Source: Candidatus Enterococcus testudinis (lineage in GTDB: Bacteria; Bacillota; Bacilli; Lactobacillales; Enterococcaceae). Taken from it: DNA of 64,000 bases. The translations under genes and the position numbers were made by a program. The stretch spans positions 365,525 to 429,524 of the forward strand of contig NZ_NGKU01000001.1 in the NCBI RefSeq assembly GCF_002140915.1, read 5' to 3'. Shown here piece by piece: positions 14,864 to 29,157 of the stretch. The notes beneath the pieces were generated by a model that worked only from the letters and a program-made list of their open reading frames with translations, searched no databases and had not been told where the DNA came from. How positions within the stretch are numbered: position 1 is the stretch's first letter; every line of letters begins with the position of its first letter.

Positions 14864-14891
14864 AGTATACGACAAAAAAGGAGCCTGTCAG
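14864..14891 (-). promoter_or_regulatory. Promoter of the DUF1801 gene inside an sRNA terminator
   Basis: On the minus strand CTGACA (14891-14886) and TATACT (14869-14864) are 16 bp apart. The -35 box falls in the right arm of the upstream sRNA terminator hairpin, so transcription of the sRNA and use of this promoter share the same DNA. Confidence 0.6.
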
Positions 14892-14952
14892 TGGGTGGCT
14901 GACAGGCTAGGAGTAAAAATGAAAAGTGTTAGTTAGGGTTGTTTGTTGGTAT
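14873..14952 (-). ncRNA. Small RNA copy A with anti-Shine-Dalgarno segment
   Basis: This predicted transcript of about 80 nt starts after a TATAGT -10 box (14964-14959). It has an unstructured 5' part containing CAUUUUUACUCCU, complementary to a ribosome site plus start codon, and ends in a GC-rich hairpin with loop CCACCCA and a T6 run. About 43 of its first bases match copy B at 15671-15750, while the hairpin stems differ by compensating changes around the same loop. The design recalls streptococcal csRNAs. I do not recognise it as a named family. The opposite reading, a tiny leader ORF on the plus strand, is less likely because the T run and -10 are on the minus strand. Confidence 0.7.
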
Positions 14953-14958
14953 GCATAT

Positions 14959-15015
14959 ACTATACCTAGAAAATGTGAATATTTTGTGGAGAAAAGATTG
15001 GGAAGTGTTTAAGAA
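14959..15015 (-). promoter_or_regulatory. Promoter and upstream box of sRNA A
   Basis: The -10 box is TATAGT (14964-14959). There is no good -35 hexamer; instead a conserved block (14971-14988) and a box TTCTTAAACACTTCC (15015-15001) are shared with sRNA B at identical spacing. A missing -35 with a fixed upstream box suggests activation by a regulator, probably a response regulator. Confidence 0.55.
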
Positions 15016-15023
15016 TATATTTT

Positions 15024-15554
15024 TTACGGCAATTCTTTGATCATTTGAATGCCAAAGCGTCCTTTCTTCGTAGTAGAGACATAAAAGTGCAGGTCATACG
15101 TCCGTTGGGCATCGGCAAGGGCCTGATATAGGGCATTGATCTCTTTTTCGGCAGCCGCTTTGGTGCGATAAAACGCCAAAGGGACTTGGTGATCTCCCCA
15201 GAAGCTATGGGCATCTATACCCATAAGCATAACAGCAGGTTCATCTGCTTTTGCGGAAAAAACTGGCGATAATATAAATTTATAGTAAGAAGAGAGTGAC
15301 CCCGTAATTTTACTGATCACAAAGATACGATGTAACGTCGTTTGATCAGGAGCAATGTCTTGCGCGGTTCCTAGCAACTCATCAACGGACACTTGGAAGT
15401 AGGTTGCTATACGTACCGCATTTTTTAAGTCAGGTTCGGCAGAGCCGTTTTCGTAGCGAGAGATGGCTTGTCTGGAAATCGACAGATAGTCAGCAAGTAC
15501 TGCTTGAGAAATCCCTTGCTTTTTACGTAATTCTTTCAAGCGGTCAGAAAACAT
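15024..15554 (-). CDS. XRE-family transcriptional regulator
   Basis: This 176-residue protein has an N-terminal helix-turn-helix of the Cro/CI type (LKELRKKQGISQAVLADYLS through RYENGSAEPDL, residues 5-45). Its C-terminal domain of about 110 residues is one I do not recognise. The start follows GGAGGTG by about six bases; an upstream frame to 15647 has no ribosome site and is not used. Two 10-bp direct repeats 21 bp apart lie in the upstream region and may be its operator. It sits between two paralogous sRNA genes in the same orientation, so it may be coregulated with them or may control them. Confidence 0.82.
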   Translation of the reverse strand: MFSDRLKELRKKQGISQAVLADYLSISRQAISRYENGSAEPDLKNAVRIATYFQVSVDELLGTAQDIAPDQTTLHRIFVISKITGSLSSYYKFILSPVFSAKADEPAVMLMGIDAHSFWGDHQVPLAFYRTKAAAEKEINALYQALADAQRTYDLHFYVSTTKKGRFGIQMIKELP

Positions 15555-15618
15555 GTTACACCTCCGTTGTTGTTTCTTAAATGGTAAAGGAAATCCTTGT
15601 TTCCTACAAGCACAGTTT

Positions 15619-15649
15619 TGTTGCAAAGTGGTGCATAGCTGTTGCAAAG
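15619..15649 (-). promoter_or_regulatory. 21-bp-spaced direct repeats upstream of the XRE gene
   Basis: TGTTGCAAAG occurs at 15619-15628 and again at 15640-15649, exactly two helical turns apart. They precede the XRE start by about 65 bp. A dimeric or tandem regulator binding one DNA face would fit; which regulator is unknown. Confidence 0.4.
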
Positions 15650-15670
15650 GCCGCTGATTCGCTATTAAGA

Positions 15671-15750
15671 CAAAAAAACACCCACCGGTGGGTGGCCGGT
15701 GGGAAGGAGTTAAAAATGAAAAAGTGTTAGTTAGGGTTGTTTGTTGGTAT
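15671..15750 (-). ncRNA. Small RNA copy B with anti-Shine-Dalgarno segment
   Basis: This paralogue of sRNA A starts after TATACT (15762-15757) and ends in the hairpin CCCACCGG/CCGGTGGG with the same seven-base loop and a T7 run. Its first part is nearly identical to copy A and includes CAUUUUUAACUCCU, which could pair with AGGAG plus a start codon. The stems of the two hairpins differ in sequence but keep pairing and loop, which is evidence for selection on structure. Confidence 0.7.
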
Positions 15751-15756
15751 ACATAG

Positions 15757-15813
15757 AGTATACGGCTTAAATATGAATATTTTGTGACAAAACCTTTCGG
15801 AAGTTCTTAAGAA
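15757..15813 (-). promoter_or_regulatory. Promoter and upstream box of sRNA B
   Basis: TATACT (15762-15757) is preceded by the conserved block at 15769-15786 and the box TTCTTAAGAACTTCC (15813-15799). The box starts 37 bp from the -10, the same as in copy A. The left half, TTCTTAAGAA, is a perfect palindrome here. Confidence 0.55.
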
Positions 15814-21361: not shown

Positions 21362-21605
21362 CACAAAAAACAGCCGTACTCCATGATTGGAAAACGGCTG
21401 TGGACAGGTCTTTGTCGACAAACCTTTCACAAAACATAGCGCAACTTAGCGAAGCTAAGACAGTCCGCAAATTGTTCATTTGCGGCCCAACAGAGTGATT
21501 CAAGCAAAATCTACTTTGTTTCGGCGATGTTCCCTAGCTCTGCTGTTACCGTGTTGCTTCACTCAGCAGGATTAATGAACCTCGCGACCTCTACCTAAAT
21601 GTTAA
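21362..21605 (-). ncRNA. Lysine riboswitch (L-box) with terminator
   Basis: On the minus strand the leader shows L-box elements in order: AGGTAGAGGTCGCGA near 21595, a CATCGCCGAA motif, then TTGGGCCGC and GCGGACTGTC in the last helices (to about 21450). A terminator (ACAGCCGT with ACGGCTGT and T6) follows at 21362-21402. Lysine binding should favour the terminator and switch off the transporter. The leader ends about 50 bp before the coding start. Confidence 0.85.
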
Positions 21606-27464: not shown

Positions 27465-27743
27465 CAACAAGAATAAACAGATCCGTTGATAAGGAAAGTA
27501 ACCGTGGATACTTCAAAGAGAGACTCTGATTGGTGGAAAGAGTTAAGTCAGAAGCGTTGAACAATGGCCTTGGAGGATTGATTGTCGATAAGTAGGCAAT
27601 CACGGACAGCTCGACCGATAGCGTGAGCGCCAATCTCTGTAAATACAGATGTTGGGTCAAGGGAAAGGCAACTTTCCAAACAAAAGGTGGTACCGCGAAT
27701 CTTCGTCCTTTTATTAGCTTCGGCTAGTAAAAGGACTTTTTTT
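27465..27743 (+). ncRNA. T-box leader 1, methionine specifier
   Basis: The leader shows stem I motifs (AGAGAG at about 27518 and GGTGGAAAG), a predicted specifier codon ATG at 27564-27566 in GAACAATGGCC, the T-box core AGGTGGTACCGCG at 27685-27697, and a terminator (27705-27743, 12-bp arms and T7). The TGGT of the core would pair with an ACCA end, as in elongator tRNA-Met. Uncharged tRNA-Met should favour the antiterminator and permit transcription of the met genes. Confidence 0.85.
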
Positions 27744-27784
27744 GTACAAAAAAGTATCAGTAAATCAATAACAAAAAGCACAGT

Positions 27785-28050
27785 GAATTGGTAAGTATAT
27801 GCGTCAGTTTTTTTTGACAGAGAGCTTCGGCAGCTGAAAAGAAGCAAAAAAACACGGATAGAAAATGGCCAAGGAGTGATTCGTCCCGAGCAGATACCTG
27901 CAAGGCGGCGACGGCAGCGACCGTTACCTCGCTAGAGTATGAATGTACTTGAAGAGGAATCTTGCGTGAGCAAGGTTTGAACAGAGGTGGTAACACGCAA
28001 AAAGCGTCCTCAAGCAAATCAATCAATGGTTTGCTTGAGGATGCTTTTTG
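27785..28050 (+). ncRNA. T-box leader 2, methionine specifier
   Basis: A second full T-box has AGAGAG near 27821, specifier ATG at 27865-27867 in GAAAATGGCC, the core AGGTGGTAACACG at 27985-27997 and a terminator at 28004-28049 (15-bp arms). The specifier context resembles that of leader 1, so both sense methionine tRNA. Series placement would sharpen the response. Confidence 0.85.
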
Positions 28051-28080: not shown

Positions 28081-29157
28081 ATGATTACGTTAAAGGATAT
28101 ATCAGTCACATTCAATCAAGCCAAAAAACCTGCGATCCAAGCAGTCAAAGACGTGTCGCTAGAAGTAGATAAAGGAGATGTCTATGGCATCGTCGGTTAT
28201 TCAGGGGCTGGGAAAAGTACATTGGTTCGCGTGATCAACCTCTTACAACGGCCGACGCAAGGACAGGTGATTGTCGACGGTACAGACCTGACGACATTGT
28301 CAGCCAAAGCTTTACGTGAAAAAAGGAAAACGATCGGGATGATCTTTCAGCACTTCAACTTGATGGACAGTCGCAATGTGTTTGACAACGTGGATTTCTC
28401 GCTGAAATATGCAGGTAGATCCAAACAGGAACGTCGTCAAAAAGTGACTGAGTTATTGGCACTTGTTGGATTGGAAGAAAAAGCCCAAGCGTTTCCCAGT
28501 CAATTGTCTGGGGGGCAAAAACAGCGGGTCGCCATTGCGAGAGCCTTAGCCAACGATCCGCAAATTCTGCTCTGTGATGAAGCCACCAGTGCATTAGATC
28601 CAAAAACTACATTGCAGATTTTGGCCTTACTCAAAAAACTAAATCGTCAACTAGGCCTGACGATCGTGATCATTACCCACGAAATGCAAGTGGTCAAAGA
28701 AATCTGCAACAAAGTGGCAGTCATGGAAGATGGTGAAGTGATCGAGCAAGGATCGAGTGTACAGATTTTCAGTAAACCAGAAAAACCATTGACCAAAGAT
28801 TTCATTCGGACGGCGACCCATATTGATCAAGCATTGGAAACCATCTTAGGCAGTACCAAATTCTCTGCATTGGCACCGAATGAATGGCTCGTGGAACTTT
28901 CCTATGTGGGGGATCAAACCAACGAACCAATCATTGCTCAGTTATACAGCCGTTATAAAGTCACCACCAATATTTTGTATGGCAATGTTGAGATTTTGCA
29001 AGAAGTGCCCATCGGCAGTTTGATCGTTAGTTTGTCTGGCGAGTACCAGCAGCGAAAACGGGCCCTTGCCTATTTGAAAGAACAAGGCGTCTACACAAAC
29101 ATTATCAAAGAAAATCATGCAGAGCCATTGAACAATGTGATTGAAGGAGGGTTTTAA
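28081..29157 (+). CDS. metN: MetN methionine ABC transporter ATPase
   Basis: This 358-residue ATPase has Walker A GYSGAGKST, signature [15 protein letters not shown], Walker B ILLCDEATSALDP and the His switch ITHEM. Its C-terminal NIL domain (about 260-345) is the methionine-sensing part that allows feedback inhibition by internal methionine. The ATG at 28081 lies behind GGAGGA; the longer frame from 28048 overlaps the T-box terminator. It leads the metN-metI-metQ operon under two methionine T-boxes. Confidence 0.93.
   Translation: MITLKDISVTFNQAKKPAIQAVKDVSLEVDKGDVYGIVGYSGAGKSTLVRVINLLQRPTQGQVIVDGTDLTTLSAKALREKRKTIGMIFQHFNLMDSRNVFDNVDFSLKYAGRSKQERRQKVTELLALVGLEEKAQAFPSQLSGGQKQRVAIARALANDPQILLCDEATSALDPKTTLQILALLKKLNRQLGLTIVIITHEMQVVKEICNKVAVMEDGEVIEQGSSVQIFSKPEKPLTKDFIRTATHIDQALETILGSTKFSALAPNEWLVELSYVGDQTNEPIIAQLYSRYKVTTNILYGNVEILQEVPIGSLIVSLSGEYQQRKRALAYLKEQGVYTNIIKENHAEPLNNVIEGGF

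Follow-up and report, generated by a model that had tools for sequence, protein, structure and literature searches.

What are the two short units that lie on the minus strand of this stretch of Candidatus Enterococcus testudinis DNA (64,000 nucleotides, hereafter the window), what could switch them on and what would they act upon? The original prediction took them for two paralogous small RNAs (sRNAs) of about 80 nt, each with a segment able to cover a Shine-Dalgarno sequence (SD) and a start codon, on either side of an XRE regulator gene. Both units are found where they had been placed, from 15750 to 15671 (copy a) and from 14952 to 14874 (copy b).

Architecture of the two units

The predicted features of the locus are as follows; the start of copy a was deduced from two cues, its distance to the -10 element and the 5′ end of the Ref84 model discussed below, and its end from the T-run.

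15671..15750, minus strand: sRNA copy a, about 80 nt, from ATACCAAC... to the terminator T-run; covariance model score 99.7 bits
15704..15727, minus strand: anti-SD, anti-AUG and anti-codon segment of copy a, ACACUUUUUCAUUUUUAACUCCUU, near-invariant in 45 sequences
15681..15703, minus strand: intrinsic terminator stem-loop of copy a, loop CCACCCA
15757..15762, minus strand: -10 element of copy a, TATACT, from its sequence and from position frequencies in 211 copies
15769..15788, minus strand: response-regulator-type box of copy a, GTCACAAAATATTCATATTT, an 11-bp direct repeat
14874..14952, minus strand: sRNA copy b, about 79 nt; covariance model score 95.0 bits
14909..14929, minus strand: anti-SD and anti-AUG segment of copy b, ACACUUUUCAUUUUUACUCCU, from its sequence, near-invariant across the family alignment
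14882..14908, minus strand: intrinsic terminator stem-loop of copy b, loop CCACCCA
14959..14964, minus strand: -10 element of copy b, TATAGT, from its sequence and from position frequencies
14971..14990, minus strand: box of copy b, TCCACAAAATATTCACATTT
15024..15554, minus strand: XRE-type HTH regulator gene between copies a and b, incidental

The likeness of the two copies cannot be due to chance, since they share 78% identity over 145 nt (E 4.8e-23), and the common DNA extends about 60 bp upstream, into the conserved promoter. As had been proposed, their common 5′ part is unstructured: in the predicted folds of the two units, the terminator alone is paired and the 5′ 44-47 nt stay open, and the 5′ part is likewise open in all five strong copies of the genome. 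The two terminators do carry the same loop on different stems. The open part of copy a, AUACCAACAAACAACCCUAACUAACACUUUUUCAUUUUUAACUCCUU, holds the exact complement of AAGGAGUUAAAAAUGAAAAAGUGUU, which corresponds to an SD followed by AUG and two Lys codons. The motif CAUUUUU(A)ACUCCU, thought to pair with AGGAGU plus an AUG, is present in the units, and its reverse complement is exactly AGGAGU(U)AAAAAUG. The layout on which trans-acting anti-SD repressor sRNAs rely, a conserved unpaired segment with complementarity to the SD and to AUG, is found here.

The XRE gene is real and does separate the copies, but it is not a conserved partner. Among 11 loci compared (L007-L017), it is matched solely in L007, from the relative G003; in four other relatives (G001, G002, G004 and G005) two copies lie about 160 bp apart without any XRE match. 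We have rejected the gene as a functional partner and consider its presence incidental.

A multicopy family of the Enterococcaceae

The window units are best read as members of an old multicopy sRNA family shared by Enterococcaceae and a sister family. That the two copies are paralogues stands, but they are part of a wider set. The source genome contains five strong copies: two in the window and three together at C1:799609-800161. A covariance model built from 45 copies matches 103 of 105 Enterococcaceae genomes in 17 of 17 genera, with 1-17 hits each; these counts include weaker hits, the source genome having six hits of which five are strong. The two genomes without a model hit are G035 (76% complete) and G066 (complete). 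In an order-wide sample of 295 genomes, 77 have hits, of which 45 belong to this family, 29 to the sister family f8, one to family f5 and two, both marginal, to family f7. In the named scan, the matches listed (80 loci) come from Enterococcus, Tetragenococcus or a Lactobacillales MAG.

The alignment comprises 45 of 50 distinct copies, five divergent ones being excluded (two from L032, one from L034 and two from L033). Mean pairwise identity is 0.944 in the first 18 columns and 0.951 in the anti-start segment, 0.655 and 0.642 in the two arms of the terminator stem, and drops to 0.32 just beyond the T-run. The unpaired segment is thus conserved in relatives at 95% mean identity, and the compensating stems proposed from the two copies extend to the 45 sequences: double changes occur in nine of nine terminator pairs (84 cells versus 23.6 in shuffles) and 97.5% of terminator cells are paired, versus 80.4% in shuffles. 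One of five covariation measures, the number of further pair types, is not above shuffles (269 of 500 as high). In the open part, selection preserves the letters; in the terminator, it preserves chiefly the shape. Conservation of the 5′ CCAACAAACAACCC is as strong as that of the anti-start segment, and this part may serve in 5′-end protection, in protein binding or as a second pairing site. As a separate observation, the sRNA variants at L336:552- and L337:681- have CAACC and AACCCUAACAC separated by an additional small insert that resembles a hairpin.

Could the conserved element be something other than an RNA gene of the minus strand? Its plus strand reads, by construction, SD-ATG-AAA, and the copies are dispersed as well as in tandem, as expected for a mini-ORF (AGGAG...ATG AAA AGT GTT AGT TAG) or a mobile repeat. 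Yet copy a would read ATG AAA AAG TGT TAG and copy b ATG AAA AGT GTT AGT TAG, with differing frame and length, and the plus-strand mini-ORF was rejected on this ground. The T-runs, the -10 and the box are all oriented to the minus strand, and both the terminator covariation and the loss of identity just past the T-run argue the same way, so that a mini-ORF or repeat is very improbable.

The original prediction could not name a family for the units. At gathering threshold, an Rfam cmscan of the window returns only two T-boxes and a lysine riboswitch, and no family for the sRNA units, but a known sister exists. This is Ref84, Enterococcus sRNA 84 (RF02846), reported as E. faecalis sRNA_109 and E. 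faecium sRNA_093 and, in the part of the source consulted, without a function (PMC7724050). Three sub-threshold Rfam matches fall in the sRNA region. Copy a aligns with model positions 1-87 of Ref84 and shares with it a 5′ UACCAACA-ACAACC, the CAUUUU...ACUCCUU segment and the terminator; at 24.5 bits it does not reach the gathering score of 52. Copy b has no Ref84 match at E up to 10, an overlap with RsaOG alone being reported (24.2 bits, E 0.29, cut-off 50). The source genome also has a Ref84-like copy near threshold at C1:2817523-2817600 (51.4 bits, L084). This copy has TATAAT as its -10 and lacks, at the sRNA spacing, the box of two half-sites, and the Rfam model has an extra internal hairpin; both features set Ref84 apart from the window family.

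Of the six f8 genomes fetched, three (G042, G049 and G055; L504-L510) have multiple copies that carry an inner hairpin with the 7-nt loop CCUCCAA, followed by a second ACUCCU, the folding having been done for three copies. One of these loci, L504, scores 49.4 bits against Ref84; with L084 it is the best-scoring of the related forms, and both stay below the gathering score. The copies of the three others (G228, G283 and G292) resemble the window form. The f8 hairpin form bridges the window form and the hairpin of the Ref84 model. By these comparisons, the window family appears related to Ref84 but distinct from it, Ref84 being its sister. In the portions of the sRNA literature available to us, including PMC7724050, PMC10117718, PMC5593968 and PMC3166299, no description of the family as a group was found; single members may figure under numbers in published sRNA tables. 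To judge from the sequences, the new points would be the family-wide spread, a box common to htrA and the bsrRS locus, and a complementarity reaching the first codons.

Two observations concern other RNA elements of the window. The T-box leaders form a tandem pair (27477-28014) just upstream of an ABC-transporter ATPase ORF at 28081, and the lysine riboswitch (21429-21601, minus strand) lies upstream of an apparent amino-acid ABC transporter ORF.

A shared promoter box and its candidate regulator

To describe the promoter, 347 profile hits were reduced to 211 distinct copies in which the start could be recognised and 100 nt of upstream sequence was present. Their strongest signals are TCACA (-37 to -33), TTCACA (-27 to -22) and TATTAT (-12 to -7), and their position frequencies contain no sigma70-like -35. 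The sRNA promoter box is thus an 11-bp direct repeat, TTCACA-N5-TTCACA, 9 bp upstream of the -10. Such a repeat at such a distance is the layout of promoters activated by OmpR/PhoB-type regulators.

The pattern TTCAYA-N5-TTCAHA-N9-TANNNT has 111 matches in 39 genomes, versus 7 for the reversed control; the window copies themselves fall one base short of it, at the distal half-site. By coordinates, 22 matches are sRNA copies and 30 precede htrA, one per genome in 30 of the 39 genomes. A further 32 were fetched with their surroundings: 31 of these stretches also contain bsrS, encoded on the strand opposite the box and facing it, with bsrR behind bsrS wherever the stretch extends that far. The remaining matches are two of response regulator type, four of polA type (the one in G012 assigned by string likeness only) and 21 unclassified. 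Besides htrA and the sRNAs, the position beside bsrRS is the sole location recovered in many genomes. In a matrix scan of leaders, 21 of 29 htrA leaders score at least 8 (one of the 30 loci having no usable start), versus 16 of 1103 background genes, a count that includes copy a's own promoter; for genes of lytic polysaccharide monooxygenase (LPMO) type the count is 1 of 30. The shared box is a concrete candidate site for the induction of enterococcal htrA.

In the source genome, the box beside bsrRS precedes an operon for two proteins, a membrane protein of 248 aa and an ABC-ATPase-like protein of 172 aa (L319:853-2051), neither of which has a Pfam match at E 0.01. These proteins evolve fast in relatives, one or both being recognisable in 23 of 32 loci and neither in nine. 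The operon comes after an ORF that looks, by eye, like ltaS, which fits the reported linkage of bsrRS with ltaS1 (PMC13123819). A plain search for TTCACA-N5-TTCACA in the source genome was mostly uninformative (13 matches versus 22 for the reversed control). The two matches inspected at that stage (L037 and L044) lie within coding sequence, and a third, at 2370213-2370229, is an inverted box upstream of bsrXRS that is only loosely alike in the relatives inspected.

The most likely regulator appears to be BsrR (YclR, PieR-like), of the OmpR family. It is the leading candidate by its position beside the box and by homology. The best match of BsrR and BsrS is the Listeria pair PieR and PieS (321/450 and 450/850 bits), below the NCBI cut-offs. 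The motif of B. subtilis YclJ is TTCATANTTTNTTCATA. PieRS is reported to control, among others, prsA1, prsA2 and the ABC pair lmo1505-1506 (PMC12234432), and a review states that evidence suggests htrA as well (PMC12826053). Enterococcal prsA mostly has no box, with 3 of 29 leaders scoring at least 8 (L502, one of the 30 loci, being excluded). This counts against the BsrR reading, prsA being a PieRS target in Listeria, and prsA is unsupported as a shared target of the box. In E. faecium, EMSA indicated binding of BsrR upstream of bsrX and lplA, and the motif proposed there by Zhou et al. in 2019, TMGAGTATAMTA, differs from the sRNA box and overlaps the -10 (PMC6522849). In the source genome, an inverted TTCACA-type repeat lies 30-41 nt upstream of the GAGTATA motif. 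BsrRS itself has been linked to bile survival (PMC6522849), to the daptomycin response (PMC13123819) and to fitness in mucus (PMC13098192).

The same translational repressors might instead obey another OmpR-family regulator, such as the g10-type response regulator, CroR or a PhoP-like one, with a trigger other than BsrRS stress. Direct-repeat boxes of this layout are general to the regulator family, and the half-sites resemble PHO and HssR boxes. Moreover, in genus g10 an unrelated OmpR-family response regulator gene has the box directly upstream (G014 and G066; L330:1033-1707 and L331) and is apparently autoregulated, as judged from this arrangement. Against such control, the box adjoins bsrRS in 31 of the 32 fetched loci, and only 2 of 30 pstS leaders score at least 8, which disfavours PhoP and its PHO box. 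TTTACA-N5-TTTACA-type repeats, whose third base is not that of the sRNA box, do occur in 22 of 30 loci (L209-L238), where they lie no more than 200 nt beyond the stop codon of pstS; no such repeat was seen across the 500 nt that precede the pstS domain match in the 30 loci. They may be an enterococcal PHO box of the next gene. We regard a regulator other than BsrR as unlikely.

Predicted targets and mode of action

Start regions were taken from 429, 337 and 347 genes in sampled stretches of the source genome G000 (464 kb), G110 (400 kb) and G032 (400 kb), the genes being identified with a simple rule that combines ORF and SD. Copy a was the sole query in the three-genome pairing and in the pairing with htrA, pstS and LPMO leaders. 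Respectively 29, 41 and 34 start regions pair with it below -12 kcal/mol, versus at most 21 for any of 18 shuffled controls per genome. The search for targets among start regions, suggested together with the original prediction, thus places copy a above 18 of 18 shuffles in each of the three genomes.

Starts of secreted proteins and lipoproteins, a class assigned by hydropathy, pair better than cytosolic ones, with AUC of 0.66, 0.65 and 0.64 (p = 1.0e-3, 2.7e-4 and 1.9e-3) in G000, G110 and G032. The bias is modest and in part a matter of composition: shuffles equal these AUC values in 1, 0 and 1 of 18 cases, and p < 0.05 is also reached by 11, 2 and 10 of 18. Taking copies a and b and a third form together, secreted versus cytosolic starts give p 7.7e-5. 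Among the top secreted candidates, named by looking at their sequences apart from the LPMO type (PF03067 search), are a MucBP-like surface protein, several lipoproteins (solute- and peptide-binding ones and one like AdcA) and chitin-binding proteins of LPMO type.

Our preferred reading, which we hold to be probable, is that BsrR controls these sRNAs and that, when the membrane or secretion is under stress, they repress the initiation of translation, chiefly for envelope and secreted proteins. Envelope or secretion stress would act through BsrS on BsrR, which would bind TTCACA-N5-TTCACA in lieu of a -35, each copy being read from its own activator-dependent promoter. The resulting 80-nt RNA would act in trans, its open-part ACACUUUUUCAUUUUUAACUCCUU pairing with the SD, the AUG and the first Lys codons of AAGGAG-n-AUGAAAAA starts and blocking 30S loading there. 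Proteins with a signal peptide typically have starts of this kind, so on balance fewer surface and secreted proteins would be made while HtrA is produced from the same box. With members in nearly all sampled Enterococcaceae, the family could provide a general sRNA regulon and make the function of BsrRS directly testable.

A more far-reaching version would have the RNA read signal-peptide genes as a class, through a single segment that matches SD, AUG and the opening Lys codons of secreted proteins, BsrR making HtrA and, via many copies, shutting off new secretory clients. If true, Enterococcaceae as a whole would share a Gram-positive response to secretion stress that includes a general RNA arm; we judge it rather improbable, and slightly more so in view of the many shuffled controls that also show some secreted-protein bias.

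Conversely, the sRNAs might target only a handful of particular mRNAs, and their broad match to start regions would be a by-product of carrying an anti-SD sequence. This would accord with a secreted bias that is modest and partly reproduced by shuffles, and with a few standout duplexes, predicted for the MucBP-like surface protein of G000 (-22.3) and for LPMO-type proteins in G110 and G032. LPMO leaders, chosen for testing after the target list was seen, pair with a median of -11.1 (n=30), better than secreted proteins, which pstS leaders resemble (-8.4, n=30); htrA leaders (-6.3, n=29) are close to the background of -5.5. Against few targets, AGGAGTTAAAAATGAAAAAGTGTT with up to three mismatches matches only copy a's own locus in the whole source genome, a result that also weighs against the main reading. 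LPMO genes were found in 15 of 58 family genomes and not in the source genome, so that they do not explain the family-wide conservation. Action on a few mRNAs is a possibility that we consider doubtful, and we retain broad repression of envelope and secreted proteins as the working model.

How does this design compare with known repressors? Streptococcal csRNAs follow the same anti-SD/AUG logic and are also multicopy, short and terminator-ended; the CiaR box is a TTTAAG-N5-TTTAAG repeat. The csRNA-style logic suggested for the window units fits their layout, but not a descent from csRNAs, with no Rfam match at threshold and another box, TTCACA-N5-TTCACA in the 211 copies. Family hits in the order-wide sample are moreover confined to this family, f8, f5 and f7. 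As far as tested, the window family does not appear to be csRNA by descent. In E. coli, envelope stress acting through sigmaE and Cpx induces sRNAs that cut envelope-protein synthesis by repressing OMPs, a design alike with unrelated sequence and regulator. CiaRH is reported to drive both htrA and the csRNAs (PMC12826053), and here htrA has the same box and spacing as the sRNAs in 30 of 39 genomes. Listeria LhrC1-5, multicopy sRNAs induced by envelope stress through the two-component system LisRK, are reported to repress the cell-wall protein gene lapB, and their LisR-responsive element lies upstream of -53 (PMC4132741), whereas the window-family box is at -38 to -19. LhrC is found neither among the Rfam hits of the window at threshold nor among the three sub-threshold ones. 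As far as tested, the window family would work like csRNAs and LhrC and be a member of neither.

A comparable layout was seen once more, upstream of a polA-like ORF in genus g8 (L334:731-900 and L335). There, a box-driven unit with UUUCAUUUGUGUGAACUCCUAA and a terminator-like hairpin has the same anti-start layout, though its sequence shows no obvious relation to the window family. Just upstream of this polA-type unit, G025 has another one that lacks ACUCCU. On the class-wide reading, the g8 unit, with its UUUCAUUUGUGUGAACUCCU, would mean that the same design arose a second time independently.
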